Assembly: GCF_004135345.1 (NCBI RefSeq)
Contig: NZ_CP035495.1
Location: forward strand, 2,728,001-2,792,000
Direction: 5' to 3'
DNA: 64,000 nucleotides
From: Xylanimonas allomyrinae
Lineage (GTDB): Bacteria > Actinomycetota > Actinomycetes > Actinomycetales > Cellulomonadaceae
Made by a program: the position numbers and the translations under genes. The notes beneath the pieces are model-generated. The model searched no databases and was not told where the DNA came from. It was given only the letters and a program-made list of their open reading frames with translations. The stretch's first letter is position 1; every line of letters starts with the position of its first letter. Positions 10,639 through 62,473 of the stretch are shown piece after piece.

Positions 10639-10690
10639 GCCTGGGTCTGCCTGGGTCTGCCTTGGTCTGCCTTGGTCGGCCTTGGCCGGC
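10639..10690 (+). repeat. 10-bp tandem repeat
   Basis: Five imperfect copies of a ten-base unit, gcctgggtct drifting to gccttggtcg, fill the space between the SpoIIE-type gene and the sigma-factor gene. The unit is not a multiple of three, consistent with its non-coding position. It lies 35-86 bases before the sigma gene start and so could affect the spacing of promoter elements. Confidence 0.85.
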
Positions 10691-10724
10691 CCGAGTGTCG
10701 GACCGTCGGCGTAGCGTGTGATCC

Positions 10725-11762
10725 ATGACACAGGTTGCCGAGACGGCCCTCGCGGCCGAGCTCGACCGCTACCGGTCGGAGCTCACGGGGTACTGCTACC
10801 GCCTGCTCGGAGGCGTGTCCGACGCCGACGACGCCGTGCAGGAGACGATGCTGCGCGCCTGGCGCGCGTACGGCCGGTTCGAGGGCCGATCGTCGCTGCG
10901 CTCCTGGCTGTACCGCATCGCCACCAACGTCTGCTTCGACCACCTGGGCTCGGCCGCGCACCGCCGCGAGCGCCCCATGGGCCTGGGCGCCGCGCAGCCG
11001 CCCGAGCTCGAACGGTTCGGCGCGACGCTCCCCGAGGAACGCTGGGTCGAGCCCGTGCCCGACGACGCCGTGCTGCCGCGCGCGGGCGACCCGGCACAGG
11101 TCGCGGTCGGGCACGAGTCGATCCGGCTGGCGTTCGTGGCCGCGCTGCAGCACCTGCCGCCCCGGCAGCGGGCCGTGCTGGTGCTGCGCGAGGTGCTGCG
11201 CTGGTCGGCCGCCGAGACCGCCGACCTGCTCGACATGACGGTCGCGGCGGTCAACTCGGCGCTCCAGCGTGCGCGCGCGACGCTCGACGAGAAGTCCCCC
11301 ACGCCCGAGTCGACCCGGCACACCCCCGGCGAGGCCTGGCGCGACGCCATGCTCGTGCGCTACCTCGACGCCTTCGAGCGGTACGACATGGAGGCTCTGG
11401 TCGCGCTGCTGCGCGAGGACGCGCTGCTCAACATGCCGCCGTACACGATGTGGGTCCGCGGGAGCGAGAACGTGGTGGCGTGGATGCTGGGGCCGGGTGC
11501 GGAGTGCCGCGGGTCGCGGTGCGTGCCCGTGCGCGCCAACGGGTCGCCCGCGTTCGGGCAGTACCGGCCGGACCGTGAGCGCGGCGGGTACTTCGCATGG
11601 GGCCTGGTGGTGCTGGAGGCCGACGACGCCGGGCAGGTCACGGGAATCACGACGTTCCTCGACGTCGGTGCCTGGTTCCCGAGGTTCGGGTTGCCGTTGC
11701 GGCTCGACGACGCACGGCCCGGGGCCGAGCGGCTCGCGGGCCGCGCGCCCGGGACCCGGTGA
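10725..11762 (+). CDS. ECF sigma factor with C-terminal SnoaL-like domain (SigG/ECF56-like)
   Basis: A 345-residue alternative sigma factor. Region 2 spans about residues 15-80 (CYRLLGGVSDADDAVQETML, then FEGRSSLRSWLYRIATNVCF). Region 4 spans about 135-190 (LPPRQRAVLVLREVLRWSAA, then TVAAVNSALQRARATL). The last ~140 residues form a SnoaL_2/NTF2-like domain (MLVRYLDAFERYDMEALVAL, then FLDVGAWFPRFGLP). In such ECF groups this tail replaces a separate anti-sigma factor in controlling activity, and none is encoded next to it here. The ATG at 10725 gives an N-terminus typical of the family. The regulon is unknown. Assignment to the SigG/ECF56 group, as opposed to SigJ/ECF41, is a judgement from domain layout. 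Confidence 0.92.
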   Translation: MTQVAETALAAELDRYRSELTGYCYRLLGGVSDADDAVQETMLRAWRAYGRFEGRSSLRSWLYRIATNVCFDHLGSAAHRRERPMGLGAAQPPELERFGATLPEERWVEPVPDDAVLPRAGDPAQVAVGHESIRLAFVAALQHLPPRQRAVLVLREVLRWSAAETADLLDMTVAAVNSALQRARATLDEKSPTPESTRHTPGEAWRDAMLVRYLDAFERYDMEALVALLREDALLNMPPYTMWVRGSENVVAWMLGPGAECRGSRCVPVRANGSPAFGQYRPDRERGGYFAWGLVVLEADDAGQVTGITTFLDVGAWFPRFGLPLRLDDARPGAERLAGRAPGTR

Positions 11763-11805
11763 AGGCCCCGCGCGAGCGGCGCGTGCCGCATGGGAGCCTG
11801 GCCTC

Positions 11806-12782: not shown

Positions 12783-12841
12783 GCCGGTCACCGCGCCGGT
12801 CACCGCGCCCGTCCCCGAGCCCGTCCCCGAGCCCGTCCCCG
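12783..12841 (+). repeat. 12-bp tandem repeats in 3' intergenic space
   Basis: Two copies of gccggtcaccgc followed by three copies of cccgtccccgag lie between the end of the exonuclease gene and the shared terminator. No reading frame uses them. Confidence 0.75.
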
Positions 12842-12861
12842 CAACGGAACGCTCCACGACG

Positions 12862-15889: not shown

Positions 15890-16915
15890 TCACAGCCGGG
15901 CCGACGCGAGGGCCGCGTCCTGCCCCGCGGCCGTGATCTCGATGCGGTCCAGCGCCTCGATCGACAGCGCCGACGACGCCCCCAGCCCCTCCGCCGCCGA
16001 CTCCGACGTCGTCCAGGTGGCGGCCACGCTCCGGCTCCCCGCACGGTCCACCAGCACGAGCTGGTAGGTCACGGCGCCGGACCCGTAGCCGTCGGGCGTC
16101 GGCAGCCCGTCGGTGAGCGCGTACCAGCAACGCCAGTCGAACCGGGTCCCCCACGGGGTCGCGGTCACCGACAGGTCGGCGTGCATGCTGCCGTCGCCCA
16201 CCGGGACGAGCTGGACGGTCCGCCGGGAGAGCACCGACGACGTCGGGGCCGGCTCGCCGTCACCGGGACCGCTCACGCGCGGCGCGCCCGCGAGCGACCC
16301 CGCCGCGACGCCCGCGAGGACGAGCGCGCAGGCCGCCGCGGCGGTCAGCGCTCCGTGCCGACGCCGCGCCCGGCGCGCGGCCGCGGCCACCCGTGCGAGC
16401 GGGACCACGTCGGCACCCGTGCGCTCGGGCTCGACCGCACCGTCCGCGTCGCCCGTCCGTGCCGCAGCCGCGTCTGCAGGACTCGCACCGACCGGACCCA
16501 CGGTGCCCGTGCCCGAAGCGACTGTGCCCGAAGCGGCTGTGCCCGAAGCGCCCGTGCCCGAAGCGGCTGTGCCCGCAGCAGCCGTGCCCGCAGCAGCCGT
16601 GCCCGCAGCGGCCACGCCGGGCTCGGCCGCGTCCTCCGCCGACCCGCCGTCAGCAGAGAAGCCGCCCGCAGAACCGCCACGCAGCGACCCGCCGTCACCC
16701 CGCCCGCCGCCTGCGGCGTCGTCGTCGGGCATCCGCACGCCGGCGTCCACGGCGCTCAGCATGCCCAGCAGCGGCGGCAGCTCCCCGAGCTCCGCGACCG
16801 CCCGCGCGCACGCGGCGCACCGGCGCAGGTGGTCCTCGTACTCGTCGCGCTCGGCCGGGCTGAGCGCGCCCAGGACATAGGCCCCGTCCCACGTCGCATA
16901 CGCGTCCGTCGTCAC
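15890..16915 (-). CDS. Anti-sigma factor, zinc-finger and single-pass membrane protein
   Basis: A 341-residue protein expected to bind and hold inactive the ECF sigma factor encoded just before it. The cytosolic N-terminus has a zf-HC2-like site (HLRRCAACARAV, an H-x3-C-x2-C element, about residues 30-42). A low-complexity linker follows, made of five-residue repeats such as AAGTA and ASGTA (about 100-135). One membrane helix lies near residues 190-212 (LTAAAACALVLAGVAAGSLA). The C-terminal ~120 residues are extracytoplasmic, of RskA-domain size. The GTG start overlaps the sigma stop codon by four bases (gtga), so translation is coupled. The repeat-built linker is unusual. Confidence 0.9.
   Translation of the reverse strand: MTTDAYATWDGAYVLGALSPAERDEYEDHLRRCAACARAVAELGELPPLLGMLSAVDAGVRMPDDDAAGGGRGDGGSLRGGSAGGFSADGGSAEDAAEPGVAAAGTAAAGTAAAGTAASGTGASGTAASGTVASGTGTVGPVGASPADAAAARTGDADGAVEPERTGADVVPLARVAAAARRARRRHGALTAAAACALVLAGVAAGSLAGAPRVSGPGDGEPAPTSSVLSRRTVQLVPVGDGSMHADLSVTATPWGTRFDWRCWYALTDGLPTPDGYGSGAVTYQLVLVDRAGSRSVAATWTTSESAAEGLGASSALSIEALDRIEITAAGQDAALASARL
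16508..16612 (-). repeat. 15-bp coding tandem repeat in the anti-sigma linker
   Basis: Seven near-identical 15-base units (gtgcccgaagcggct type, drifting to gtgcccgcagcagcc) encode the GT-A-A/S linker of the anti-sigma factor. The unit length keeps the reading frame whatever the copy number. Confidence 0.9.
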
Positions 16916-17415: not shown

Positions 17416-17418
17416 GTG

Positions 17419-18282: not shown

Positions 18283-18891
18283 ATGCGACACCACGCACGC
18301 CTCGCCACGGCCGCCACACTCCTCTTCGCCCTGGCCGGCTGCTCGAGCAGCGGCACCGAAGGCCCGGCGGAGAACCCTGCCGAGCGTCCTGCCGAGAGTC
18401 CGGCGGGCGGCACCGCAGGCAGCCTGGAGGACGACACCGCGCAGGACCAGGGCACGGGGCAGGCGGGCACGGGGCAGGCGGGCACGGGACAGGGGGGCAC
18501 TGGGCAGGCGGGCACTGGGCTGGCCACGGCGACCACGAGCCTCGGCGAGGTGATCGTCGACGCTCAGGGCATGACGGTGTACACCTTCGCTTCCGACGAG
18601 CCCGGCTCGGGCGAGAGCGCCTGCACCGACGAGTGCGCCGCACGGTGGCCGGCCGTCCACGCGGACAGCGCCGCGCCGACGGCGGACGGGGTCACCGGCG
18701 AGCTCGGCACCATCACCGGCACCGACGGCGAGCTCCAGGTCACGATCGACGGGCGCCCGCTGTACACCTTCGCCGACGACAAAGCCCCCGGGGATGCCAC
18801 CGGCCAGGGGGTCAAGGGCGTCTGGTGGGCGGTCGCGCCCGACGGGACGGACGTGACGGGGGCGCCGATGTCGCCGAGCACGGGGTCCTGA
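18283..18891 (+). CDS. Lipoprotein with paired YTFA(S/D)D secreted-repeat motifs
   Basis: A 202-residue exported lipoprotein. The signal peptide ends in the lipobox LAGC (Cys at about 20). A Pro/Glu then GTGQA-repeat linker runs to about residue 80. The folded part carries two copies of the COG4315 / Lipoprotein_15 motif, MTVYTFASDEPGSGES and RPLYTFADDKAPGDAT, separated by a conserved CTDECAARWPAV segment. The family is widespread in actinobacteria and has no established biochemical role; links to redox or envelope stress have been suggested. gagaaggacgg supplies the ribosome site. It is divergent from the YceI-sigma operon and shares its promoter type. Confidence 0.9.
   Translation: MRHHARLATAATLLFALAGCSSSGTEGPAENPAERPAESPAGGTAGSLEDDTAQDQGTGQAGTGQAGTGQGGTGQAGTGLATATTSLGEVIVDAQGMTVYTFASDEPGSGESACTDECAARWPAVHADSAAPTADGVTGELGTITGTDGELQVTIDGRPLYTFADDKAPGDATGQGVKGVWWAVAPDGTDVTGAPMSPSTGS
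18449..18524 (+). repeat. 15-bp coding tandem repeat in lipoprotein linker
   Basis: Five copies of a 15-base unit (ggcacggggcaggcg type) encode the GTGQA linker between the lipid anchor and the folded domain. Confidence 0.88.
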
Positions 18892-21169: not shown

Positions 21170-23323
21170 CTACGCGCCGCCCTTCTTCATCTCGACCATG
21201 ATCTGCTCCGCGTCGAGCGCAGACAGCGCGCGCTCGAGCTGACGCGAGTCGTGGGCGCCCGAGGCGCGGGCCTCGAGCAGTGCGACCCGCTGCGCCTCGA
21301 TGATCCGCAGGCGCAGCTGCCGGTACTGCCGCACCCTGTCGGCGGACTCCTGCGCGTCGACGTCGTCGGACGCCTGCCCGCGCACGACGTCGGCGCGCAC
21401 ACGGGTGACGACGTCCGCGTCGAAGGGGGTGCCGTCCGAGCGCTCGAGCTCGCCGCCGTCGAGCAGCTCACGCGCTGCGGACTCGACGACACGTCGCAGC
21501 GACAGAACCTCCTCGACCGAGACGCCGCCCTGGCCCGCCAGGTCCAGCCGCCGCACGACCCACGGCAGCGTGCCGCCCTGGAGCAGCAACGTCCCCGCCG
21601 CGACACCGAACGCGACCAGCACGACGAACGACCGCTCCGGGAAGTCCGCCGGCAGCGACTGCGCGGCAGCCAGCGTGACGACCCCACGCATCCCGGCCCA
21701 CACGAGCAGCCCTCCCTCGCGCGGCCCCAGCGGTTTGGCCGTCAGGTAGTCGATGTCGGCGACGCGCCGCACCAGCCCGCTCTGCAGCCGCTTGACCCTG
21801 GCGACGGGCACCTCGCGCGGCCCGGTGCTGTTGCGGCCGCCCGAGAAGCTGAACGGTGCCCCGCCGCCGAACGGTGCCCCGCCGCCGATCGGGCCGACTC
21901 CGCGCGCGCCCTGCCCGAGCGGGTTGACGCGCAGACGCCCGCGCAGGTCGTCGTCCGCGCCCGGCTCGCGCGCGCCAGGGTCGTCGTCGGGCGATCCGCC
22001 GGACGGCACGCCCTCGGAGGGGCGGCCCGGGGAGAGCGCCTCACCCGATGCCAGCTCACCCGATGCCAGCTCACCCGGCACCAGCTCGCCCGGCACCAGC
22101 TCGCCCGGCACCAGCTCGCCCGGCACCAGCTCGCCCGGCACCGCCTCGTCGGAGGGCAAGCCTTCCGTGGGCCGGCCGCCGGCAACCACCACGCCGATCG
22201 GCAGGCCCTCGAACGCCCGCGGCCCGAACGTGAGGACCCCGTCAGGCTCAGCGTCCGCGAGGCGCGTCTCCAGACGTTCCTGCACGGTGGCGAGCACGCC
22301 GCGCGAGGCCGCCGCGCGGCGAGCACGGCGTGCGAGCGAGGCCAGCAGCGGCGCGACGTACGCGGCCCGCACGGCGAGCACGACGACGGTCGCGAGCCCG
22401 GCGATCCCGGCACCCAGCCACAGCGACCCGCCCACGTCGAGCACGTCCTCGACCGTCTTCGACAGTTCGAGACCCATGAGCAGGAACACGCCGCCCTCGA
22501 GCAGCAGCTCGACGGTCGCCCAGTTCGAGTACTCGAACTGGCGGTCCCGCGGGCCGAGGTGCCGCGCGGAGCCGTAGCCGGTGACCAGTCCGGCCGTCAC
22601 GACGGCAACCAGCCCCGACGCCTCGACGTGCTCGGCCGGCAGGTAGGCGGCGAACGGCACGGCGAACGAGATCGCCGTCGACAGCGCCGCGCTCCCGACC
22701 AGGCGCCGCGCCTGCAGCGCGAGCATCCCGACGACGCCGCCGCACAGCACCGCGCCCGCGACCGCCCAGGCGAAGTCGCCGACGATCTCGCCGAACGACA
22801 CGGACACCGCGGTCGCCGCGACCGCCGAGCGCAGCAGCACGAGCGCCGAGGCGTCGTTGAGCAAACCCTCCCCCTCGAGCACGGTGACGACGCGCGCGGG
22901 TGCCCCGAGCTTCTTGACGATCGACGTCGCCACGGCGTCCGTGGGCGACACGATGGCGCCCAGCGCGATCCCGCCGGCAAGGCCGAGCTCGGGCAGGATC
23001 GCGGAGAAGACGAACCCGAGCAGCACCGAGGTCACCACGACCAGGACGACCGACAGGCCCCCGATGGTCGCCAGGTCGCGCCGGAAGTCCATCGTCGGCA
23101 GCGAGACGGCCGTCGAGTAGAGCAGCGGCGGCAGCACCCCGGCAAGGATGACCTCGGGCGGGACCACGATCGCGGGCACCGTCGGCAGTGCGCTGATCCC
23201 CACCCCCAGCAGGACGAGGATGAGCGGTGCGGAGACTCCCGTCCGCGGCGCCAGGGCGGTCACCGCGATGACGGCGACGGCGGCGAGCAGGCCCACGAGC
23301 AGAGGATCCATGGGCGACATCAT
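21170..23323 (-). CDS. CPA1-family Na+/H+ antiporter with repeat-expanded cytosolic loop
   Basis: A cation/proton antiporter of the NhaP/NhaK type (717 aa). The first ~340 residues give about ten membrane helices, with GAIVSPTDAVATS and EGEGLLNDASALVLL being the family ion-path signatures. A ~150-residue hydrophilic insert follows. It includes seven (V/L/A)(P/S)GEL-type repeats, a Gly/Pro segment and GGGAPFGGGAPFSFSGG. After it the last membrane part (WAGMRGVVTLAAAQSLP) and a cytosolic helical tail resume. Related antiporters usually have a much shorter loop here. Gain of the insert by tandem duplication is inferred from the DNA repeat. The start is one of the two ATGs at 23323/23320. Confidence 0.9.
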   Translation of the reverse strand: MMSPMDPLLVGLLAAVAVIAVTALAPRTGVSAPLILVLLGVGISALPTVPAIVVPPEVILAGVLPPLLYSTAVSLPTMDFRRDLATIGGLSVVLVVVTSVLLGFVFSAILPELGLAGGIALGAIVSPTDAVATSIVKKLGAPARVVTVLEGEGLLNDASALVLLRSAVAATAVSVSFGEIVGDFAWAVAGAVLCGGVVGMLALQARRLVGSAALSTAISFAVPFAAYLPAEHVEASGLVAVVTAGLVTGYGSARHLGPRDRQFEYSNWATVELLLEGGVFLLMGLELSKTVEDVLDVGGSLWLGAGIAGLATVVVLAVRAAYVAPLLASLARRARRAAASRGVLATVQERLETRLADAEPDGVLTFGPRAFEGLPIGVVVAGGRPTEGLPSDEAVPGELVPGELVPGELVPGELVPGELASGELASGEALSPGRPSEGVPSGGSPDDDPGAREPGADDDLRGRLRVNPLGQGARGVGPIGGGAPFGGGAPFSFSGGRNSTGPREVPVARVKRLQSGLVRRVADIDYLTAKPLGPREGGLLVWAGMRGVVTLAAAQSLPADFPERSFVVLVAFGVAAGTLLLQGGTLPWVVRRLDLAGQGGVSVEEVLSLRRVVESAARELLDGGELERSDGTPFDADVVTRVRADVVRGQASDDVDAQESADRVRQYRQLRLRIIEAQRVALLEARASGAHDSRQLERALSALDAEQIMVEMKKGGA
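22041..22145 (-). repeat. 15-bp coding tandem repeat in the antiporter loop
   Basis: Seven copies of a 15-base unit (cagctcgcccggcac on the plus strand). The five leftward-read copies are almost identical and the two flanking ones have changed to cagctcacccgatgc. They encode VPGEL/ASGEL repeats in a cytosolic loop. Confidence 0.92.
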
Positions 23324-23384: not shown

Positions 23385-23475
23385 GGGTCACAGCGCGGTG
23401 TCGTAGGACGGAGTCACAGCACGGTGTCACGAGGCGGTGTCACAGCACCGTGTCGTAAGGCGGTGTCACAGCATG
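23385..23475. repeat. Imperfect tandem repeats upstream of the antiporter gene
   Basis: Four to five diverged copies of a unit like gtcacagcacggtgtc fill the gap between the nuclease gene and the antiporter start, and the last overlaps the nuclease stop codon. They occupy the position where an antiporter promoter would lie. Confidence 0.75.
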
Positions 23476-47608: not shown

Positions 47609-47671
47609 CCGGCCGCTCGCCCGGCCCGCGGGGCGCACGGGCAAGCGGCCGGCACCGGCTGCACCCGTGCG

Positions 47672-48423: not shown

Positions 48424-48505
48424 CGCCGCTGGTTGTGACGGTGCCGGTGCTTGTGACGGTGCCGGTGCTTATGACGGTGCCGGTGCTTGTGAAGGTGCTT
48501 GTGAA
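48424..48505. repeat. 18-bp tandem repeat
   Basis: Three to four copies of tgtgacggtgccggtgct, the last ones shortened to tgtgaaggtgct, lie between the divergent NmrA-type gene and the DUF5808-like gene, about 120 bases before the latter. No gene appears to use them. Confidence 0.85.
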
Positions 48506-49048: not shown

Positions 49049-50056
49049 GTGAGCGCCTCCCCGGTCCCCCGCCCCGCAGACGCCGACGGCACCAGTGCGG
49101 AGAACGTCGGCACAGGACACGTCGGCACAGGACACGCCGGCACAGGACACGCCGGCACAGGACACGCCGGGACTGGTCCGCCCGGTCTCGACTTCACCGG
49201 TCCCCACCCCACCGGTGGCGACCCTGCCGGTGGCGACCCCGACGTGCGGCTCGTCGTCGCCGACATGGACGGCACGCTGCTCGACGTCGACGGCACCGTC
49301 CCCGCGGGCTTCTGGCCGCTGCTGGAGCGCATGCGCGAGCGGGGCATCGTGTTCGCGCCGGCGAGCGGCCGGCAGTACGCGACGCTCGCGCGCACGTTCG
49401 CCGGGCACCTCGACGGCATGCCGGTCATCGCGGAGAACGGCACGTTCGTGGTGCGCGACGGCGCGGAGGTCAGCTCGGTGACGCTTGCCCCGCACGTCGC
49501 GACGAGCGTCGTGCGCGCGGTGCGGCAGGTCGCCGACACCGGTCGGGACGTCGGCGTCGTCGTGTGCGGCAAGCGATCGGCGTACGTGGACCGGGTCGAT
49601 GCCGCGTTCTGGGACCAGGCGGGCCGGTACTACGCGGCGCTCGACGCGGTCGCCGACCTGGAGCCCGTCGCCGACCTGGAGTCGGTCGACGACGAGATCC
49701 TCAAGGTGGCGGTGTTCGACTTCGACGGCGTCGAGGCCGCCGTGGCCCCGGCGCTCGCGCCGATCGCGGCGACCGAGCAGGTCGTCGTCTCGGGCCACCA
49801 CTGGGTGGACGTGATGTGCGCGGGCGTCTCCAAGGGCGGGGCGGTCGAGAGGCTCCAGGGCGACCTCGGCGTCACACGCGAGCAGACCGTCGCTTTCGGT
49901 GACTACCTCAACGACCTGGAGATGCTGGACGCGGCGGCGTGGTCGTTCGCGATGGCGGACGCCCACCCGCAGGTGCTGGCTCGTGCGCGGTACGTGGCGC
50001 CGTCGGCGGCGGAGCACGGCGTGGTGCGGGTGCTGGAGCGCCTGCTCGCGCGCTGA
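49049..50056 (+). CDS. HAD-superfamily phosphatase (Cof/IIB type) with repeat-built N-terminus
   Basis: A 335-residue sugar-phosphate or phosphoester phosphatase. HAD motif I is VVADMDGTLLDVDG with the nucleophile Asp, motif II is in FAPASGRQY, motif III is the Lys of CAGVSKGGAVERL, and motif IV is VAFGDYLNDLEML. The cap between motifs II and III is type IIB, as in YbiV/YidA. The first ~60 residues are extra: GTGHA repeats from a 15-base tandem array, then a Gly/Pro/Asp linker. GTG 49049 has gggagga eight bases upstream and is preferred over the ATG at 49010. The substrate is unknown. Confidence 0.9.
   Translation: MSASPVPRPADADGTSAENVGTGHVGTGHAGTGHAGTGHAGTGPPGLDFTGPHPTGGDPAGGDPDVRLVVADMDGTLLDVDGTVPAGFWPLLERMRERGIVFAPASGRQYATLARTFAGHLDGMPVIAENGTFVVRDGAEVSSVTLAPHVATSVVRAVRQVADTGRDVGVVVCGKRSAYVDRVDAAFWDQAGRYYAALDAVADLEPVADLESVDDEILKVAVFDFDGVEAAVAPALAPIAATEQVVVSGHHWVDVMCAGVSKGGAVERLQGDLGVTREQTVAFGDYLNDLEMLDAAAWSFAMADAHPQVLARARYVAPSAAEHGVVRVLERLLAR
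49105..49175 (+). repeat. 15-bp coding tandem repeat in the HAD phosphatase
   Basis: Five copies of gtcggcacaggacac / gccggcacaggacac encode GTGHV/GTGHA at the N-terminus, ahead of the catalytic domain. Confidence 0.9.
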
Positions 50057-50057
50057 G

Positions 50058-50220
50058 CCCATCGCGCGGGGCCAGCGTGCGGGGCCAGCGTGCGGGGCCA
50101 GCGTGCGGGGCCAGCGTGCGGGGCCAGCGTGCGAGACCACCGCGCGAGGCCAGCGTGCGAGACCACCGCGCGAGGCCAGCGTGCGAGACCACCGCGCGAG
50201 GCCAGGGTGCGAGCCCATCG
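50058..50220. repeat. 13/26-bp minisatellite upstream of the DUF11 surface-protein gene
   Basis: Five copies of a 13-base unit ccagcgtgcgggg are followed by three copies of a 26-base unit in which ccagcgtgcgaga alternates with ccaccgcgcgagg. The array fills the gap between the HAD gene stop and the promoter region of the large surface protein. The odd unit length fits a non-coding location. Confidence 0.95.
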
Positions 50221-50312
50221 CGGAGGTCTGATATGGCTGACACGACCGATATGTCAGCCTTCGGGGTGCCTGTCGGATGAGCCTCCCCTAGCCTCGAAGC
50301 GAGGGGTTGGTC

Positions 50313-53300
50313 ATGGGGATGACATTGCGACGCGCTCTCGCGGCGGTCTGCACCGTCGCTCTGGTCGTCGTGGCCTTCTCGCTTCCCGTGGGTCCCGCAG
50401 ACGCCGCCCAGACCGTACCGTTCGCGCCCAAGTTCACGGCGAACGCGAACGGCGCCATCCTCACCATCGGCAACAACCTGCTGACCTGTGCGGCGTCGGC
50501 GCCGGGCTGCGCCACCGCACGGGCGGGCGCCGTCGCCGACAACAACCACTTCACGATGGTGAATCTGGACGCCGACGACGTCGCCGCCACGGCCCGCTCG
50601 TCGTCGTCCTCGCTGGACCTGCCCGAGGGCGCCTCGGTGCTGTGGGCGGGCCTGTACTGGGGTGCGCGGCTGGAGGCGGGCACCGGGGGGCAGGGTGCCA
50701 GCGAGGCCGCGGCGAACCAGATGTCGTTGCGCGCACCGGGCGACGCCGCCTACCGCACGGTGGCGGCGTCGACGGCGCCACACGACCAGTTCGGCCCCAA
50801 CGGTTCGAGCCGCGACGCCTACCAGAGGTTCGCCGACGTGACCTCGATCGTGCAGGCGGCCGGCAACGGCGAGTACTGGGGCGCGGACGTCGCGGCGGCG
50901 ACGGGTCAGGACCGCTACGCGGGCTGGGCCCTGACCGTCGTCTACACGGCCCCCGGGATGCCGCTGCGCAACCTGTCGGTGTTCGACGGCTTCGACGTCA
51001 TCGCGCGCGGGCACCCGCAGACCATCGCGGTGTCCGGGTTCCAGGCACCGCAGGCGGGTGCCGTGGACGCCCAGCTCTCGATGGTCGCCTACGAGGGCGA
51101 CCTGTCACAGACCGGTGACGTCGCGCGGCTCAACACCACGCAGCTCGGCACCGCCGTCTCGCTCGGGTCGAACTTCTTCGACTCCATCAACTCGCGCGAC
51201 TCCGCGTCGGTGACCACGCGCACCCCCGCCGACCGCAACATGCTCGGGTTCGACATCAAGAACCTCGGCGCGTCGGGCGCGATCCCCAACGGGGCCACGA
51301 GCGCCCGGTTCACGTTCTCCAGCAACGGCGACACGTACTACCCGGGTGTCCTGGGCCTGGCGATCAACCTGTACGCACCGGACTTCACGGCGTCGTCCAA
51401 GACGGTCGTCAACCTGGACGGCAACAGCACGGCCCGTCCAGGCGACACGCTCCAGTACACGCTCAGGTACATCAACACCGGCCAGGACCCGGCGGTGGGC
51501 GTCGTCTCCGAGGACCCGCTGCCGCCGGGCACCACGTTCGTGCCCGGGTCGCTGGCCCTGGTCGACCCGGTCACGGGGGCGACGACTGCGCTGACCGACG
51601 CCGCGGGCGACGACCGTGGTGAGGTTGCGGGCCGCACGGTGCGCGTCCGGCTCGGCGGCGGCGCGGACGCCGCCACCGGCGGCACCATGGCGTGCACGGG
51701 TGCGGGCTGCGCCACCGACGGCACGTCCCGCGCCGCGTACACGTTCCAGGTCACGCTCGACGACGCCGCGGGCGGCACCACGGTCACCAACGTCGCCGAC
51801 CTCGCCTACCGCACGGCGACGACCGGCATCGCGGCGTCCTACACGGCCAACCCGGCGAGCGTCGACGTCATCACGCGGGCCGACGTGTCGGTCACCAAGG
51901 AGCTCAGCCCTGACCCGGCCGCCGTCGGCGCCCTGATCGACGGCACCCTGACCGTGCGTAACGACGGGCCCAACACCGCGCGGAACGTCGTCGTGCGCGA
52001 CCCCGTCCCCGACGGCTGGACGACCGCCTCGATCGACGCCCCGGACGGGGTGACCTGCACCGACGGCGCGGAGATCGTCTGCGCGCTGGGCGACGTGCCG
52101 GTCGGGGCCTCCGTCGTCGTGCACGTGCACGGCTCCGTGACACCGGGCTCCCGGCAGACCTCGCTGACCAACGTCGCGTACGTGACCACCGAGTCCGACG
52201 ACCCCGACCCGACCGACAACGTGTCGAGCGACACGATCGCCCTGGCCCGGACGGCCGACCTGGCGATCACCAAGACGGCGAGCCCGGCCTCGGCACCCGC
52301 CGGCTCAGCCGTCGACTACACGCTGACGGTGCGCAACGACGGCGCCTCCGACGCGCAGGACGTCGTCGTGACCGACACGGTGGACGACGCGGGCCTGCTC
52401 GCGCTGACCTCCGTCACGGGCACCACGGGCGGTGCGACGTGCGCCGCGCCCCGGGCCGGCAGCCTGCGCTGCACGGTCGCGACGCTCGCCCCGGGCGCGA
52501 CCGCGACCGTCACCGTGCAGGGCGTGCTGGACTCCGCCCTGCCCGCAGGCACCACGGTCGGCAACGCCGCCACCGTCACCGCGGGCACGGCCGACCCTGA
52601 CCCGAGCAACAACCGCGTGACGGCCCAGGTGACGACGACGGCCCCGACGGCCGACGTGCGGGTCACGAAGACCGGACCGCCGACCGTCGTCGCAGGTCAG
52701 ACCGTCCAGTGGACGGTCACGGCCACGAACTTCGGGCCCTCCGACGCCACCGGCGTCACCCTGGCCGACGACGCCCCGCCCGGCGTCACCGTCACCGGCG
52801 CGACGACGTCACGCGGCACCTGCACCACTGGGCCGTCTGGGCCGCCAGGGCCCCCAGGGCCGGCGGGCACGACCGTGACCTGTGACGTGGGCACCCTGGT
52901 CGCCGCCGGAGCCGCCGACGGCGGCCCCCAGCCGGGTGCCGCCGTGACGGTCACCGTCACGGGCACCGTCGCACCCGACGCGACCGGCCCGCTCGTCAAT
53001 GCGGCCACCGTCACCACGACGAGCACCGACCCCGTCCCGGGCAACGACACCGCGACGGCCAGCACCGCCGTCACGACGGCGTTCGACCTCACCGTGGAGA
53101 AGAGCGCCAACCGCACCTCGCTGCCGGCGGCCACCCCGACCGACGTCGACTACGTCGTCACCGTCCGCAACCACGGGCCGTCCGCGGCGCACGACATCAC
53201 GGTGCGCGACCTGCTGCCGCTCGCGCTGACCTACGGCTCGTGGGCGACCGACGCCGGCACGTGCGACGCCACGCACGCCGGGACCCCGCAGTCCGGGGAC

Positions 53301-56300
53301 CCTGACCACGGCCTGCTCACCTGCACGCTCCCCGGCCCGCTCCAGCCCGGTGCCGCCGCCGAGATCAGGGTGCACACGGTCGCCGAGACAGCCCTGGAGG
53401 GTGGGCCGCCCGTCGTCGAGACGGTGACGGTCGCCGCTCCCGGCGAGGAGCCCACCAGCAACAACACCGCTTCGTGGACGCTTGCCGGAGCACCGTACAA
53501 CGACCTGCAGCTCACCAAGGACGCCCCCGAGACGGTGACCGCGGGCGGGACCGGCCGCTACACGCTCACGGTCTGGAACCACGTCCCCAACCCTGGCGAG
53601 GAGCAGACGGTCGCACTCGCGCCCACGCTGACCGACACCCTGCCCCCGGGCGTGACGTTCGCCGGCGCGAGCATCGCCGGAACCGCGCTCTCCTGCGCGA
53701 CGTCGGGCGACCCGGCCACCGGGCAGGACGTGAGCTGCGCGATGCCCGCCAACCTCGCGCCCGACGAGCACGTCGCCGTCCGGCTCGACGTCGCCTTCGC
53801 CGCCGACCTCGCCCCCGGCACGGCCCTCGTCAACACCGCCACCGTGGTCAACCAGCCCGGCAACCCGGACCCGGCACCCGAGAACAACACCTCCCACGGC
53901 ACGTCCACCGTCGTCACCCTCGCCGACCCGAGCGTCACGGGACTGGCCGTCACCCCGCGCGACCCCGCCCGCACCGGTGCGGGCACCACCTGGGACCTGA
54001 CGTTCACCGTCGCGAACGGCGGGCCGTCCGTCGCGCGCGACGTGACGTTCCGCGTCGCCGTCGACCCCGACGTCCTGGCCAGCGCGTCGTCCCTGCCCGA
54101 CGCCCTGCCCGACGACTGCGTGCTCTCCAACGGAGAGCTGGTCTGCCTCCTCGACGGCGCCGACCTGGCCCCCGGCGCCTCCCAGGACTTCACGTTCACG
54201 TTCTCGCTCGCCGGGTACGTCGCCGCGGGCCTCTACGACGGCACCGTCCACGTCGCGAGCTCGACACCCGACGCGGACGCGACCAACAACGACGCCACCA
54301 CGACGTTCCAGGTGACCGGGCCGCGCACCAGCGTGAACGTCACCAAGACGACCGTCGACGCGATCAGCACCGCGGACGGGCACGACGCGTTCGTGGCAGG
54401 CAGCGCCTTCACCTACCAGATCACGGTCACGGTGCCGCGCGACGCCGGCGTGGCCGACGCGCAGGACGTCCGCCTCGAGGACCAGCTGCCGCCGGGGTTC
54501 CTCGCCACCCTCGTGAGCACCACGCGCGGCGTCTGCACGCTCGGCGGCATCGCGCGCGTGACCTGCCGGCTCGGCACGCTCGCCGCCCCGCCAGGGTCGT
54601 CCGAACCGGCCGTCGTCACGGTTCACGGGTTCGTCGACGTCAGCACCGAGGGCGAGCAGTTCGTCAACACGGCCACGGTCACCTCGTCCACCCCGGGCCA
54701 GGACGGCACCCCGACGTCGGTGCAGGCCACCGCCGCCGCCGACGTCGTCGAGCAGGCCGACCTGCACCTGTACAAGACCGCCGACGCAGCGCCGGGCGAT
54801 GACGGCATGCCCGTGTTCTACGCGGGCGGCACCGTCGGCTACACGCTCACCGCCGTCAACGCGGGACCCTCCGACGTCGAGCACGCCGCGATCGACGACA
54901 CGCTCCCGCCCGGGCTCACGCTCGACCCCACCGCCTCGGGCGACCCGTCGAGCACGAGCGCGGCATGCACCGTCACGGGTGGAACGCCCGCCACGGGACA
55001 GCAGGTGCACTGCACGGTGGGGGCCCTCGGCGTCGGCGAGTCGGCGTCGCTGCGCATCGTCGCGACGACGGCGCCCGACGACGGTGAGCCCAGTGATGTG
55101 CCCGGTGGCGACCCCTACGGGCGTGTCGTCACCAACACCGCCACCGTGACCTCGCAGGCGACCGACCCCGACCCGGACAACGACAGCGCGAGCACCGACG
55201 CCCGGATCGAACGGCTCGCCGACCCCGCGCTCACGTCCGCCGTGAGCACCACGACACCCGCCGCGGGCGGCCAGATCACCTACACCGCCTTCACGATCAA
55301 CAACGGCCCGTCCTCGGCCTGGGACGTCACCGGCACGACCACGTTCCCGCCGGGCTTCGTCCCGGTGAGCATCGACGTGCCGTTCAACACCTGCACGTGG
55401 AACCAGCCGCCACCGGCCGACCCGGCGAGCGTCCCGTGGGAGCCCTTCTCCTACGTGCTGGACTGCGTGCCGATCGACCCGTCGTCGCCGTTCCCGCCCG
55501 GCCAGACCACGACGTCCGTCGTCGTCATGCACATCCCCGGCGACACGCCGTCCGGCACCTACGCCGGACAGTCCGTGGTGCGCACCACCACCCCCGAGGC
55601 GACGACCGACAACAACGACACCGCACAGGCCGTCGTCGTGTCCCACGTGTCCGACACGCAGATCATCAAGACGCTCGTCGACCCCTCCCCGATGCTCGCC
55701 GGCAGACCCGTGACCTGGCGGCTGACCGTCACCAACGCCGGGCCGTCGACCGCCGACGACGTCACGATCTCGGACACCGTGCCCGACGGGATGCGCTACG
55801 TCTCCGCGCAGATCGAAGGCGGCGCGGCCTGCCCGCCACCCGAGAGCCACGACACCGGCGTCGGCGACACCGACACCGTCCTGCGCTGCCCCGTCGGCAC
55901 GCTCGCCGTCGGGCAGCAGGCATCAGCGCTGGTCACCTTCGAGATCGACGCCGACCGGGCCGGGCAGGACCTGTGCAACGCCGCGCTCGTCGGCTCCGGG
56001 TCGCTCGACCCGTACGCCACCGACAACCAGGACGAGGCCTGCGGCACGGCCGAACCACCGCCGTCGGCCGACGTCGCCCTCACGCTCACACCACCCGACC
56101 AGACACTCCGCAGCGGCGACCACGCCACGCTGACGATGACCGTGCGCAACAACGGGCCCGGCCACGCGACCGGCGTCACCGCGACCCTCGACCTCCCCGA
56201 CGGCTTCACCGCCGCCTCCGGCGTCGCCGTCTCGTGGCCCGACGGGCGGCCGCGACCGCCTGCCGGGGCGGCGGCACCCGGCACGGGCGGCACGGGCGGC

Positions 56301-56777
56301 ACGCTGACCTTCGACATCGGCGACCTCGCACCCGGCGAGCAGGTCGAATACCGGATCGACGGCACGATCGGCGGGACGCCCGGCGCTGCGGACACCGCGG
56401 TCACCGTGATCACCATCGCGGGCACGACCGCGCACCGTGAACCCGACCCCGTGCCGTCCAACGACTCCGACGACGCGGTGGTGCGCATCGCGAACCAGAC
56501 CACGGCACCGCCCACGCCGATGGTCCTGGAACCGCCGCCCGGCAGCGGGCTGTCTCAAGGTCTCGGGCTGCCGCAAGGTCCCGCACCGGCGCTCAGGCCG
56601 ATGCCGGCCGCAGGGCCCCCGCGGGCCGCGAGGCTGCCGCGCACCGGAGCAGCGGTCCTGGGCCTGACGACCGTCGCGCTGGCACTCGCGGGAGCGGGCA
56701 CCGCACTGCTCGCCGGCCGCCGTCGCGACACCGAACGAGGACGCCCGGGGGCCACGCACGCCGCCGCGCACCGCTGA
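50313..56777 (+). CDS. Giant DUF11-repeat surface protein with LPXTG sorting signal
   Basis: A 2,154-residue secreted protein predicted to be linked to the cell wall. An N-terminal signal peptide (RRALAAVCTVALVVVAFSLP, cleaved near ADA-AQ) precedes a ~340-residue head domain with VLWAGLYWGARLEAG and GWALTVVYTAPGMPLRNLSV. About twelve DUF11-like beta-sandwich modules follow (from ~residue 350 to ~2000), each with V-T-x-x-N-x-G-P-S-x-A near its start, and ending in phrases like NTATVTSQATDPDPDND. A collagen-like GPSGPPGPPGPAG insert lies near residue 845. The end LPRTG, a hydrophobic helix and RRRDTERGR form a sortase signal. ATG 50313 has gagggg six bases upstream. The role is probably adhesive or structural; no sortase gene is in the window. 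Confidence 0.93.
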   Translation: MGMTLRRALAAVCTVALVVVAFSLPVGPADAAQTVPFAPKFTANANGAILTIGNNLLTCAASAPGCATARAGAVADNNHFTMVNLDADDVAATARSSSSSLDLPEGASVLWAGLYWGARLEAGTGGQGASEAAANQMSLRAPGDAAYRTVAASTAPHDQFGPNGSSRDAYQRFADVTSIVQAAGNGEYWGADVAAATGQDRYAGWALTVVYTAPGMPLRNLSVFDGFDVIARGHPQTIAVSGFQAPQAGAVDAQLSMVAYEGDLSQTGDVARLNTTQLGTAVSLGSNFFDSINSRDSASVTTRTPADRNMLGFDIKNLGASGAIPNGATSARFTFSSNGDTYYPGVLGLAINLYAPDFTASSKTVVNLDGNSTARPGDTLQYTLRYINTGQDPAVGVVSEDPLPPGTTFVPGSLALVDPVTGATTALTDAAGDDRGEVAGRTVRVRLGGGADAATGGTMACTGAGCATDGTSRAAYTFQVTLDDAAGGTTVTNVADLAYRTATTGIAASYTANPASVDVITRADVSVTKELSPDPAAVGALIDGTLTVRNDGPNTARNVVVRDPVPDGWTTASIDAPDGVTCTDGAEIVCALGDVPVGASVVVHVHGSVTPGSRQTSLTNVAYVTTESDDPDPTDNVSSDTIALARTADLAITKTASPASAPAGSAVDYTLTVRNDGASDAQDVVVTDTVDDAGLLALTSVTGTTGGATCAAPRAGSLRCTVATLAPGATATVTVQGVLDSALPAGTTVGNAATVTAGTADPDPSNNRVTAQVTTTAPTADVRVTKTGPPTVVAGQTVQWTVTATNFGPSDATGVTLADDAPPGVTVTGATTSRGTCTTGPSGPPGPPGPAGTTVTCDVGTLVAAGAADGGPQPGAAVTVTVTGTVAPDATGPLVNAATVTTTSTDPVPGNDTATASTAVTTAFDLTVEKSANRTSLPAATPTDVDYVVTVRNHGPSAAHDITVRDLLPLALTYGSWATDAGTCDATHAGTPQSGDPDHGLLTCTLPGPLQPGAAAEIRVHTVAETALEGGPPVVETVTVAAPGEEPTSNNTASWTLAGAPYNDLQLTKDAPETVTAGGTGRYTLTVWNHVPNPGEEQTVALAPTLTDTLPPGVTFAGASIAGTALSCATSGDPATGQDVSCAMPANLAPDEHVAVRLDVAFAADLAPGTALVNTATVVNQPGNPDPAPENNTSHGTSTVVTLADPSVTGLAVTPRDPARTGAGTTWDLTFTVANGGPSVARDVTFRVAVDPDVLASASSLPDALPDDCVLSNGELVCLLDGADLAPGASQDFTFTFSLAGYVAAGLYDGTVHVASSTPDADATNNDATTTFQVTGPRTSVNVTKTTVDAISTADGHDAFVAGSAFTYQITVTVPRDAGVADAQDVRLEDQLPPGFLATLVSTTRGVCTLGGIARVTCRLGTLAAPPGSSEPAVVTVHGFVDVSTEGEQFVNTATVTSSTPGQDGTPTSVQATAAADVVEQADLHLYKTADAAPGDDGMPVFYAGGTVGYTLTAVNAGPSDVEHAAIDDTLPPGLTLDPTASGDPSSTSAACTVTGGTPATGQQVHCTVGALGVGESASLRIVATTAPDDGEPSDVPGGDPYGRVVTNTATVTSQATDPDPDNDSASTDARIERLADPALTSAVSTTTPAAGGQITYTAFTINNGPSSAWDVTGTTTFPPGFVPVSIDVPFNTCTWNQPPPADPASVPWEPFSYVLDCVPIDPSSPFPPGQTTTSVVVMHIPGDTPSGTYAGQSVVRTTTPEATTDNNDTAQAVVVSHVSDTQIIKTLVDPSPMLAGRPVTWRLTVTNAGPSTADDVTISDTVPDGMRYVSAQIEGGAACPPPESHDTGVGDTDTVLRCPVGTLAVGQQASALVTFEIDADRAGQDLCNAALVGSGSLDPYATDNQDEACGTAEPPPSADVALTLTPPDQTLRSGDHATLTMTVRNNGPGHATGVTATLDLPDGFTAASGVAVSWPDGRPRPPAGAAAPGTGGTGGTLTFDIGDLAPGEQVEYRIDGTIGGTPGAADTAVTVITIAGTTAHREPDPVPSNDSDDAVVRIANQTTAPPTPMVLEPPPGSGLSQGLGLPQGPAPALRPMPAAGPPRAARLPRTGAAVLGLTTVALALAGAGTALLAGRRRDTERGRPGATHAAAHR

Positions 56778-56892
56778 AGCGACACCGCTGAAGCGACCTT
56801 GCTGGACCGACCTTGCTGAACCGACACTGCTGGACCGACCTTGCTGGACCGACACTGCTGGACCGACCATGCTGAACCGACACTGCTGGAGC
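56777..56892. repeat. 13-bp minisatellite downstream of the DUF11 gene
   Basis: About nine copies of a 13-base unit such as ttgctggaccgac / actgctgaaccga begin at the stop codon of the surface-protein gene and end just before the terminator hairpins. Confidence 0.93.
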
Positions 56893-56896
56893 GACA

Positions 56897-57005: not shown

Positions 57006-59573
<2,568 letters not shown>

Positions 59574-60134
59574 TCATGGGCTGGCGACCTTCAGTTTGGT
59601 GGCTTCGGTGTTGACGGCGTCGGTGTTGACGGCGTCGGTGTCGACGGCGTCGGTGTTGACGGCCTCAGGGCTGGCGGCCGCGCCGGCGCCGTCGGCGGAC
59701 TCCGCAGGAGCAGACGTGGAGGCGCACTGCGGGCACACGCCCCAGTACACGACCTCGGCCTCGTCGATCTGGAACCCGTGGTCCTCCGACGGCGTCAAAC
59801 AGATCGTCTCCCCTATCGCGCAGTCGACGTCGACGACCGCACCGCACGACCGACACACCAGGTGGTGGTGGTTGTCCCCGGTGCGCGTCTCGTAGCGGGC
59901 GACCGAGCCTGCCGGCTGGATGCGGCGCAGGATGCCGAGGTCGCTCAGCGTGCGCAGCGAGTCATAGACCGTCTGGTGCGAGACGTCGGGTATCGCCTCA
60001 CGCACGGCAGCGATCACCGACTCGGTGTCCGGGTGGGCGAGTCGGTCGACGGCCGAGATGACGGCAAGGCGGGGCTTGGTGATGCGCAACGCGGCATCGC
60101 GCAGCATGACCCGGGCACCTTCCTCGCTGATCAT
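59574..60134 (-). CDS. furA: Fur-family regulator (FurA type) of katG, with repeat tail
   Basis: A 186-residue metal- and peroxide-responsive repressor. The winged helix covers the first ~90 residues (LRITKPRLAVISAVDRLAHP, SHQTVYDSLRTLSDLGILRR). The dimerisation half has the metal ligands of NHHHLVCRSCGAVVDVDC and a second CxxC in GVCPQCAST. The last ~35 residues are a V-N/D-T-D-A repeat encoded by a 15-base tandem array, absent from most FurA proteins, and it ends in TKLKVASP. ATG 60134 is preferred; the in-frame ATG at 60152 falls inside the promoter. It lies upstream of katG and on its strand, so direct control of katG is expected. Confidence 0.93.
   Translation of the reverse strand: MISEEGARVMLRDAALRITKPRLAVISAVDRLAHPDTESVIAAVREAIPDVSHQTVYDSLRTLSDLGILRRIQPAGSVARYETRTGDNHHHLVCRSCGAVVDVDCAIGETICLTPSEDHGFQIDEAEVVYWGVCPQCASTSAPAESADGAGAAASPEAVNTDAVDTDAVNTDAVNTEATKLKVASP
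59596..59662 (-). repeat. 15-bp coding tandem repeat in the Fur tail
   Basis: Four copies of gtcggtgttgacggc (one gtgtcg) encode the NTDAV/DTDAV repeats at the C-terminus of the Fur-family protein. Confidence 0.9.
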
Positions 60135-60169: not shown

Positions 60170-60729
60170 CTTTGTCCTGCCTCAGATGCCAAGCCTGTCG
60201 CGTGCTGGCACGACATGTCGCACCGTGTCGCTCTATGTCGCCTCATGGTCCTTTGCGGCGGCGGTCGCAGGGCCCGCACAGGGCCGTGCGGGGCTTGACG
60301 CGGGGTCGTACGCCGGGCGCTTTGCGCCGCACGCAGGGGCCGCATGCGCAGTGCCGTACGCAGGGCGCGTTGCGCCGTCTGAAGGGCCGTATGCGCAGTG
60401 CCGCCCGCATCCCGGTGCCGCCTCCTGGCCGCCTCTCGCGCTCGCCCCTCCGCCGCCCCTGCGCCTCCCCTGCGCCTCCCCCGATGGCCCGAGCCGCCGC
60501 CCATGGCCACACGACCGCCGCACGCGGTCGGCACGAGGTCGGCGCGACGCCAGACCGCGGCCAGGTCGCAGCCAGGTCGCGGCGGGTCGCGGCCGGGTCG
60601 CGGCCGGGTCGCAGCCGGACTGCGGCTCGTCGACGTCCTGCTCGCGGGCCCGTCCGCATCCTTCATCGCCGGCTCACCTCAGCGCGCCACGCTCGCGCTG
60701 TCCACAGATTCGCACTCCGACCTGGTCAT
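60170..60729. other. Gene-free, G+C-rich repetitive stretch
   Basis: About 560 bases without a supportable gene. They contain related segments cgcagggccgtgcgggg, cgcaggggccgcatgcgcag, cgcagggcgcgttgcgcc and gaagggccgtatgcgcag (60280-60400). Two cctgcgcctcc copies lie near 60460, and a 12-base array of gtcgcggccggg / gtcgcagccagg lies at about 60560-60625. Open frames on both strands are Arg/Ala-rich and lack ribosome sites. Confidence 0.55.
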
Positions 60730-60745
60730 TCGTACATGTGTTCGA
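60730..60745 (+). promoter_or_regulatory. LexA (SOS) box upstream of the HNH gene
   Basis: tcgtacatgtgttcga matches the actinobacterial LexA consensus TCGAAC-N4-GTTCGA in 11 of 12 fixed positions. It lies 123 bases before the HNH gene start, in front of an AT-richer segment (ataaactcgtgcatgg). 13E12-family genes of mycobacteria are known to carry SOS boxes. Confidence 0.8.
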
Positions 60746-60868
60746 TAAACTCGTGCATGGTTCACGGCGAGCGCTGACACGGCAGATGACACGGCAGACG
60801 CTGAGCGCGCGTCCGTGCCACGCGAACTGGCCGAGCGCACCGGGGTGCGCGTGATCGAGGAGGTGCCC

Positions 60869-62473
60869 GTGACGGAGACGACGTCTCGTGACATCGCGCG
60901 CATGCTCCCCGACGACGCCGCCGGGCGCCTCGCCGAGGGCGTCGCGCTGCTGAGCGCGAGTGTCGAGGTGCTCACCGGTCTCGCCGCGTCGGGCGACCTG
61001 CACGACATTTCCGCCACCATCCTCGCGCGGGCCGAGCGCCAGGTCAGAGCGTTGGAGCACCGCCTGAGCGCTGTCCGGCTGTCGATTCTCCCGGTCGTGG
61101 AAGACGACGGCGCCTGGGCGCTCGACGGGTCCCGTTCCTTCCCGGCATGGCTCGCCCGGCACGACGACGTACCCCGCGGCGTCGCGAATCGCGAGTCCCG
61201 GCAGGCCCGTGCGTTGCGCGACGATCTGCCCGCGACCCTCGCTGCTGCCCTGGCGGGAACAGTCGGCTGTGACCAGGTGACCGCGATGGTCGCGGCCTGT
61301 ACGACGACGGCTCGGGCCGCCGCGCTCGCCACGCCGGTGACCGGGCTCCCGACCCGCCTCGACGACGCCCCCGTGGCACCGCCTCCGACAGGTGAGGAGT
61401 TCCTTCTCGCTCAGGCCGCGCTGCACCCGATCAGCGGGTTCCAGCGGCTGGTCCGGCACTTCGCGCACGTGGCCGACCCCGATGCCGACGATCGCGGCTA
61501 CCGTGGCGCCGTCGAACGCGAGTACCTCGAGCTGAGCCTGACGCTGGGCGGCTACCACGTCAGCGGGTTCCTCACCGAGGTGCATGGCGCTGCGCTGCGG
61601 ACGGCCCTCGACGCCGTCGCCGGAGCACCCGCCGCAGACGACGAGCGCACGCCCACGCAGCGGCGGGCGCAGGCTCTGGCCGACCTCGCGCGGCTGGCGC
61701 TCGACAACGGCATGGTCGGCACGGGCGCGGCGGTGCGCCCGCACCTGAACGTCACGGTCTCGTGGACCGAGCTCCAGCGTCAGCTGGGCGTCGACGGCGA
61801 TGCGCGCCGGGCCGGCAGGTCCAGCGCGGCCACAGGACCTGCCGGGTCTGCGCGGAGCGCAGGAGCACCACGAGCACCACGAGCACCACGAGCACCAGGA
61901 GCACCAGGAGCACCAGGAGGGGCGGGACCCGACTGCCGCGGCTGGACCGAGAGTGTCGACCCCGGGCCTGTCGGCGGCAGCACCCGTGATGACGACTTGT
62001 CGCGGCTGCTCGCACTGGACCGCACCCCGGCAGTCCTCGAGGGATCAACCGGTCCGCTGCCAGCCACGGTGCTGCGCGCGATTGCCTGCGACAGCGAGAT
62101 CACACGAATCGTCTTCGGTCCCGACGGCCAGGTCCTCAACGTCGGCCGCGCTCAACGCACCATCACCGGTCAGCTCCGGCGCGCGGTCATCGCGCGCGAC
62201 CGGCACTGCACCTATCCCGGCTGCGACCAGCCACCCTCGCGTTGCGACGTCCACCATGCCGAGCGCCACTGGGCGGCTCATCACGGCGAGACCTCGACGG
62301 CGAACGCCGCCCTTCTGTGCTGGCACCACCATTCCCTCGTCGACACGACGAGCATCACGATGCGCTGGCGCGCGCCCGCATCGGGCTCGACAGCCGGGTG
62401 GGAGTTCACCGACCGGCACGGCCGTCGCATCGAGCACCGCCCGTGGCGGTCCGGCGAGGGACGGCGCACATGA
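60869..62473 (+). CDS. HNH endonuclease with DUF222 domain (13E12-repeat family)
   Basis: A 534-residue protein. The N-terminal ~300 residues are the DUF222 region of 13E12 proteins (SFPAWLARHDDVPRGVANRE, GFLTEVHGAALRTALDAVAG). A Ser/Ala/Arg linker has an APR/APG repeat made by a 9-base array (61858-61920). The C-terminal HNH nuclease motif is RDRHCTYPGCDQPPSRCDVH, HAERHWAAHHGETSTANAAL and LCWHHHSLV, with all metal and catalytic His/Cys residues present. GTG 60869 has gaggagg five bases upstream; GTG 60815 is also open. 13E12 genes are multi-copy in many actinobacteria and their role is unsettled. The SOS box suggests induction by DNA damage. Confidence 0.9.
   Translation: MTETTSRDIARMLPDDAAGRLAEGVALLSASVEVLTGLAASGDLHDISATILARAERQVRALEHRLSAVRLSILPVVEDDGAWALDGSRSFPAWLARHDDVPRGVANRESRQARALRDDLPATLAAALAGTVGCDQVTAMVAACTTTARAAALATPVTGLPTRLDDAPVAPPPTGEEFLLAQAALHPISGFQRLVRHFAHVADPDADDRGYRGAVEREYLELSLTLGGYHVSGFLTEVHGAALRTALDAVAGAPAADDERTPTQRRAQALADLARLALDNGMVGTGAAVRPHLNVTVSWTELQRQLGVDGDARRAGRSSAATGPAGSARSAGAPRAPRAPRAPGAPGAPGGAGPDCRGWTESVDPGPVGGSTRDDDLSRLLALDRTPAVLEGSTGPLPATVLRAIACDSEITRIVFGPDGQVLNVGRAQRTITGQLRRAVIARDRHCTYPGCDQPPSRCDVHHAERHWAAHHGETSTANAALLCWHHHSLVDTTSITMRWRAPASGSTAGWEFTDRHGRRIEHRPWRSGEGRRT
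61858..61920 (+). repeat. 9-bp coding tandem repeat in the HNH gene linker
   Basis: Six copies of agcaccacg / agcaccagg encode APR APR APR APG APG APG between the DUF222 and HNH domains. Confidence 0.9.

Follow-up and report, generated by a model that had tools for sequence, protein, structure and literature searches.

That reading-frame selection filters tandem repeats within genes is already known from other bacteria. In Legionella pneumophila, all 26 intragenic repeats examined have a length divisible by three, which was explained by reading-frame selection, and the copy number in seven genes differs between strains (PMC2639597). The accessible part of an account of prokaryotic satellites, that is, at least four repeats of 10-200 nt, describes them as mostly unique to a place and predominantly of lengths divisible by three; most species have few (the top bacterial value in its table is 23.0 per Mb), and those of C. 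difficile are concentrated in two chromosome regions (PMC6749651). Isoptericola sp. AK164, a member of the Promicromonosporaceae with 73.5% G+C, has 521 minisatellites by Tandem Repeats Finder (TRF) in 3.58 Mb (PMC10425560). Here we analyze the tandem arrays in a 64-kb window (G000:C1:2728001-2792000; 73% G+C) of Xylanimonas allomyrinae, whose genome comprises 3.85 Mb in two contigs. The unusual part is not the frame filter, but a one-sided, origin-proximal zone of array accumulation that contains this window. A literature search confined to titles and the beginnings of abstracts found no origin-adjacent minisatellite zone, which does not prove its absence from print.

The arrays of the window resemble the described systems in several respects. 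Their units of about 10-60 bp lie head to tail in tandem and exceed chance expectation, as in minisatellites, and a rough re-implementation of the satellite rule of PMC6749651 finds nine satellites in the window, or 141 per Mb, whereas the remainder of the zone yields 65 and the cold part of the genome 24.5; the re-implementation counts more than the original appears to, since named actinobacterial loci give 10.5. The intragenic lengths are multiples of three (3n), as in L. pneumophila, but that study compared strains where we compare species, and its accessible text holds neither an intergenic comparison nor regional clustering (PMC2639597). The Isoptericola genome likewise combines many TRF minisatellites with high G+C; the available portion of its report, unlike the present analysis, contains no treatment of frame, age or position (PMC10425560).

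We consider it probable that the arrays are unrelated, recent minisatellites that arise from chance seeds through slippage or unequal exchange, are filtered for frame in genes, and are concentrated regionally in their births or survival. Each array would start as a chance short direct duplication, the seed, and would grow by slipped-strand replication or unequal exchange. Within genes nearly only 3n units would persist, mostly in linkers, tails and loops, while unit length would be nearly free between genes, and births or their survival would be several-fold concentrated in a territory of about 320 kb beside the origin.

Array number, reading frame and age

Arrays were located with TRF, with overlapping rows reduced to the best-scoring row and short periods dropped before counting (below 5 in some counts, below 7 in others), and genes were called with a home-made codon-model caller. 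The original prediction of more than twenty arrays in 64 kb is exceeded, with 56 non-overlapping arrays at score ≥50, and 19 arrays have at least four copies and at least 80% identity. The excess over randomized sequence is observed directly: the window has 87.5 arrays per 100 kb where dinucleotide-Markov sequence has 6.2 (score ≥50), 85.9 against 6.9 after codon/base shuffling (score ≥50, period ≥7), and 34.4 against 0.2 after the same shuffling at score ≥80. Hence the strong rows are hardly due to chance, and the weak rows include some chance periodicity; indeed, several weak "coding arrays" (at 21338, 35705, 44652 and 49649) consist mostly of sequence shared with congeners. The unit sequences appear unrelated, with neither a common unit nor a mobile element found. 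No 6-mer is strongly shared among 205 units beyond G+C-rich words, as a dispersed repeat family of REP or MIRU type would show, and neither a shared unit motif nor strand-asymmetric units gave a strong signal as a cause.

At score ≥70, all 13 coding arrays of the window have 3n units, as against one of 12 clearly intergenic arrays; three of the four arrays in possible N-terminal extensions are 3n, and a single array at a gene edge is not. Pooling the window with 60 samples from the rest of the genome, we count 112 3n units among 116 coding arrays and 26 among 58 intergenic ones [Fisher about 7 × 10-15 for coding versus intergenic; P = 0.07 for the intergenic share versus one third]. These counts bear out a reading-frame filter on the repeats, and they agree with variable number tandem repeats whose intragenic units keep the frame, rather than with phase-variable contingency loci, whose intragenic units are not 3n. 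The stronger claim, that coding units are always frame-neutral, stands for the 13 arrays but not for two genes, RlmC and a zf-HC2 gene, which are frame-broken at their arrays. Similarly, the claim that units between genes are mostly of other lengths fits the window more than the genome, because 25 of the 46 intergenic units outside the window are 3n. Mis-called genes may contribute to this high share, as exemplified by the arrays before the HAD gene, which become coding because the likely start lies at 49049 and the upstream context is like that of the G002 gene; this start, at least, was mis-set by the caller.

Within proteins, the arrays were said to sit only in linkers, tails or surface loops. 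In seven hosts (anti-sigma protein, lipoprotein, antiporter, dimethylargininase, Lrp, Fur and DUF222 protein) the array does lie outside the best-matching Pfam stretch, a placement that relies on the best stretch, as second stretches are not displayed for some hosts; the RlmC array (residues 209-230), in contrast, overlaps the end of the family match (residues 1-218). The idea that such arrays supply new low-complexity protein segments is supported.

To judge the age of the arrays, we used twelve 20-kb stretches from each of three congeners (G002, G008 and G010), in which the gene order of the window is largely kept, with some genes missing. One genome represents each species, and orthologues with 45% identity or less were excluded; one to three congeners per gene were aligned. 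At score ≥75, 11 of 11 coding arrays are missing from every aligned orthologue; at score ≥70, 12 of 13 are missing, and the remaining one (21338) is conserved sequence. The congeners have arrays of their own, in genes and in spacers, and the spacer arrays are different in each congener. At one site in the dimethylargininase loop, different arrays occur in G000 and in G002, the latter with a short array of 12-bp units. In RlmC, a seed is directly visible: G002, G008 and G010 have in common 1.75 copies of a 12-bp unit, which is expanded in G000. Thus the predicted recent, lineage-specific birth of repeats is supported, and the arrays are not identical in all relatives, as an old and static set would be. 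Judged from these alignments, the arrays appear to be young and species-specific.

The same comparison bears on the possibility that the arrays are old functional elements, such as binding sites or repeat domains, kept by selection. In the peroxidase-fur spacer, 16-bp arrays of partly similar sequence are present in both G000 and G002, as this explanation would have it, and a shared origin is plausible there, unlike in any other spacer. Nearly all spacers differ in unit, Rfam has no match in the window at gathering thresholds, and for coding arrays the explanation is already contradicted by their absence from every aligned orthologue, so that we regard it as highly improbable.

The zone beside the origin

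The gene dnaA is located at 2.8747 Mb; in front of it GC skew has a tendency to negative values, and beyond it to positive ones. Sampling of the genome by sixty 20-kb samples and three bins of the window (63 bins) delimits a hot zone of about 320 kb (2.53-2.85 Mb) that lies to one side of dnaA and contains the window. The clustering in G000 is a direct observation: with the window bins included, the hot zone has 20.6 coding and 93.5 intergenic arrays per 100 kb at score ≥70, compared with 7.2 and 17.8 in the cold samples, an enrichment of about 3-fold within genes and 5-fold between them. With the window left out, arrays of score ≥50 number 65.8 per 100 kb in the 13 hot-zone samples and 29.5 in the 47 samples outside. 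In none of 20000 permutations of the 63 bins did any 16 successive bins add up to the sum that is observed. The process was predicted to be genome-wide; arrays do occur beyond the window, but their density is regional.

Comparison with other genomes depends on the threshold. At score ≥50, the expected excess over genomes of equal G+C does not appear outside the hot zone, with a value of 31.0 in 20 samples against 35.0, 43.8 and 38.8 in three genomes of like G+C (G018, G019 and G028). Under a stricter criterion, at least four copies and 80% identity, we count 19 arrays in 64 kb of the window (297/Mb), 30 in 260 kb of the hot zone outside it (115/Mb) and 32 in 940 kb of the cold part (34.0/Mb), compared with five in 480 kb of the other samples of the three congeners, nine in 880 kb of twelve further genomes (comparison genomes other than the congeners were represented by 40-80 kb each) and 17 in 1612 kb (10.5/Mb) of 80 named loci; the 11 of these loci with more than 70% G+C hold six in 223 kb (26.9/Mb). 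The hot zone including the window differs strongly from the cold part [P = 4 × 10-11], and the cold part is above the other congener samples [P = 0.008] but hardly above the 11 loci of high G+C. These counts set the hot zone clearly apart and show the cold part as moderately unusual at most.

One could argue that nothing special has occurred, and that high G+C together with coding periodicity yields TRF arrays in all actinobacteria of such G+C alike. The cold part does resemble genomes of like G+C at the loose threshold and lies near the G+C-rich named loci under the stricter one, G+C correlates with array count over the bins (rho = 0.40), and some weak rows are conserved sequence. Against this, shuffled sequences give only 0.0-0.2 arrays per 100 kb at score ≥80, bins of similar composition differ, and the four-copy densities in the window and in the rest of the hot zone are far higher. 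This explanation is already contradicted for the hot zone, and we consider it very unlikely as a whole. We also rejected G+C as the cause of the hot zone: despite the correlation over bins, the hot bins show no significant difference from the others in G+C, in G+C at third codon positions (GC3) or in coding fraction. The share of genes on the plus strand is lower in the hot zone [0.44 versus 0.56, P = 0.02].

Whether births or survival differ by territory is a separate question. If selection were relaxed, the genes and spacers of the zone would tolerate insertions, and arrays born everywhere would survive mainly there. General tolerance of this kind would raise coding and intergenic densities together, as is seen, and the arrays do lie mostly in linkers and tails. 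The genes of the block, however, are syntenic and have a median identity of 80-81% to congeners, GC3 and coding fraction are not significantly different from those of the other bins, and the increase is stronger in spacers than in genes. For this last reason we favor a raised birth rate over relaxed selection and infer that births rather than survival differ by territory; relaxed selection is a less likely alternative, though one that retains some weight. Protein identities of hot and cold genes offer few cold pairs for comparison, and these are partly paralogues. Coding density amounts to 22% of intergenic density in the hot zone and to 40% in the cold samples; a simple filter alone does not account for this, the share lying below the one third expected from frame filtering in the hot zone and above it in the cold samples.

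The congeners allow the zone to be followed to other species. In G002, G008 and G010, the block that matches the window is found at a distance of some 34-157 kb from dnaA, on the same side (in G010 if the contig is circular). Over the three congeners, arrays of score ≥80 number 36 in the 240 kb of this syntenic block versus 32 in 480 kb elsewhere [P = 0.001], and by the four-copy criterion the block (80 kb) and the rest (160 kb) have three versus one in G002 and four versus two in G008. A one-sided origin-proximal zone in congeners is thus partly supported.

Several observations weigh against the explanation that we prefer, regionally concentrated births under a frame filter. The block in G010 is not raised by the four-copy criterion (one in 80 kb versus two in 160 kb), and stretches around the same gene in G001 and G005 are poor in arrays (4 to 7 per 20 kb, score ≥50). 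The other side of dnaA (2.87-3.10 Mb) is only slightly raised, with 9.8 coding and 29.5 intergenic arrays per 100 kb. The limits of the zone were set after the data had been seen, with sampling contiguous in the zone and sparse elsewhere. Array differences are seen between species only, with no change in copy number observed within a species, each being represented by one genome, and the high 3n share of intergenic units outside the window described above belongs here as well.

Repair genes were considered as a cause and rejected. Of the 12 genomes searched, all have NucS, all but G014 have Ku and G005 alone has MutS_V; because G000, with NucS and Ku present and MutS absent, is like most relatives searched, this gene content does not explain the excess. 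The two MutS_V domain matches in G005 (G005:C1:321504-323515) have no counterpart in the other 11 genomes searched. We rejected parS-like sites as well: six are tightly clustered just before dnaA (2.866-2.871 Mb; L124, L221) and one more lies at 1.25 Mb, with none (up to three mismatches) in the sampled hot zone. Near 2545154 of G000 (L227), a protein of 1668 aa contains DSDGDGIPD-type repeats, encoded by 17.1 copies of an 84-bp unit. For a REP-like element of the GGTTTCGACAGGCTCAACC type, we count 30 copies in 240 kb of G010 (e.g. in stretch L138), where it is also found in tandem arrays; the 240 kb of G002 hold 10 copies, 400 kb of G000 a single one, and the G008 samples none.

Arrays and frame breaks along the window

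Every host named by the original prediction carries an array by TRF, in positions counted from the first letter of the window. Arrays absent from the orthologues in G002, G008 and G010 lie in the linker of a zf-HC2 anti-sigma-like protein (16505-16612, minus strand; 15/45 bp), the N-terminal part of a Lipoprotein_15 protein (18450-18524, plus strand; 15 bp × 5.0), a loop of dimethylargininase (43259-43469, minus strand; 15/54 bp, also given as 43259-43426), the C-terminal tail of an Lrp/AsnC regulator (44738-44801, plus strand; 15 bp × 4.3) and that of a Fur-family regulator (59601-59663, minus strand; 15 bp × 4.2). In three proteins the sole orthologue aligned lacks the arrays: a Na/H exchanger (the antiporter), with arrays after its transmembrane domain (21851-22142, minus strand; 18 bp × 2.3 at 21851-21892 and 15 bp × 6.1 at 22051-22142), and the protein at 24382-26277 (the putative beta-propeller protein of the original prediction), with two 12-bp arrays (25705-25811, minus strand) and no Pfam or NCBIfam match, both compared with G002; and a DUF222 (HNH-type) protein (61860-61919, plus strand; 18 bp × 3.3), compared with G010. 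The N-terminus of YbdD carries an array (26746-26838, minus strand; 12/24 bp) absent in G002 and G008, and two 15-bp arrays (49104-49240, plus strand) lie in the N-terminal extension of the HAD hydrolase.

YbdD (26498-26836), beside CstA, has a weak match, far below cut-off, to the KCU-star selenoprotein model. Among the relatives listed for CstA, the closest named one is Promicromonospora citrea (86% over its best segment; the listing may omit very near records), and a record titled Vibrio cholerae 35D (L092; 64%), possibly mislabelled or contaminated, stands among the actinobacterial relatives.

Between genes, the sole 3n array among the 12 clearly intergenic ones at score ≥70 is at 12783-12842 (12 bp × 5.0). 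Units that are not 3n occur at 10638-10685 (10 bp × 4.8; the G002 spacer has 40 bp and no array), 26417-26474 (28 bp × 2.1, with a 14-bp subunit), 39313-39365 (11 bp × 4.8), 41294-41553 (17 bp × 3.3 and 32 bp × 1.9, the latter with a 16-bp subunit), 50055-50226 (26 bp × 6.7; none in the G008 spacer), 56787-56895 (28 bp × 3.9), 59265-59424 in the peroxidase-fur spacer (11, 16 and 16 bp) and 60307-60618 (47, 22 and 11 bp). A 26 bp × 3.7 array, not 3n, extends over the 3' end of the Endonuclease_NS gene (23387-23481). Two arrays may be intergenic or belong to N-terminal extensions, one before the isochorismatase gene (46910-46974; 28 bp × 2.4 with a 14-bp subunit, not 3n) and one at 48425-48498 (18 bp × 4.1). 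The isochorismatase open reading frame (ORF) and an NAD-binding ORF (47016-48336) are convergent with an overlap of about 270 bp, and the isochorismatase is called about 65 aa shorter in G002 and G008. The protein of 2152 aa at 50319-56777, with twelve DUF11 stretches, has an orthologue at 57% in G008, and none was found in the G002 block.

Three genes of the window are frame-broken, each being a single ORF in G002, G008 and G010. RlmC falls into two frames at the site of its 12-bp arrays (38506-38605, plus strand; the first at 38506-38568), the zf-HC2 gene at about 39.4-41.2 kb is divided into several frames around 12-bp and 9-bp arrays (40518-40659, minus strand; 524-548 aa in the congeners), and nadE (1-1916), which encodes NAD synthase and is normally essential, is divided between two overlapping frames without an array at the breakpoint. 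Because nadE is split in this way, assembly indels are possible for the frame breaks, which are either gene-breaking changes of non-3n length at arrays or such indels. Three broken genes within 64 kb, one of them normally essential, might raise the suspicion that the arrays themselves are sequencing or assembly artefacts. Base-indel noise does not produce arrays of 10-54 bp units, and the separate assemblies of the congeners have arrays of their own; we therefore find artefact an extremely improbable source of the arrays, while for the frame breaks alone it is a live explanation.

Implications of a regional repeat excess

Our more specific proposal is tentative, and we put it forward with less confidence than the general one: that the region beside oriC on one chromosome arm is a minisatellite nursery, where tandem duplications would be born, or retained, at several times the frequency found elsewhere, along about 320 kb whose genes have ordinary composition and largely keep their synteny. 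This would hold for two or more species of the genus, would steadily supply conserved regulators, Fur and Lrp among them, with new disordered tails, and would now and then break a gene.

A several-fold regional difference in repeat density, in the presence of ordinary composition and conserved gene order, is unexpected within a single bacterial chromosome. If births differ by territory, then position-dependent repeat mutation becomes directly testable, with the same genes in congeners revealing the start sites and seeds of the arrays, and comparison of congeners would show the origin of new low-complexity protein segments and perhaps that of broken genes.

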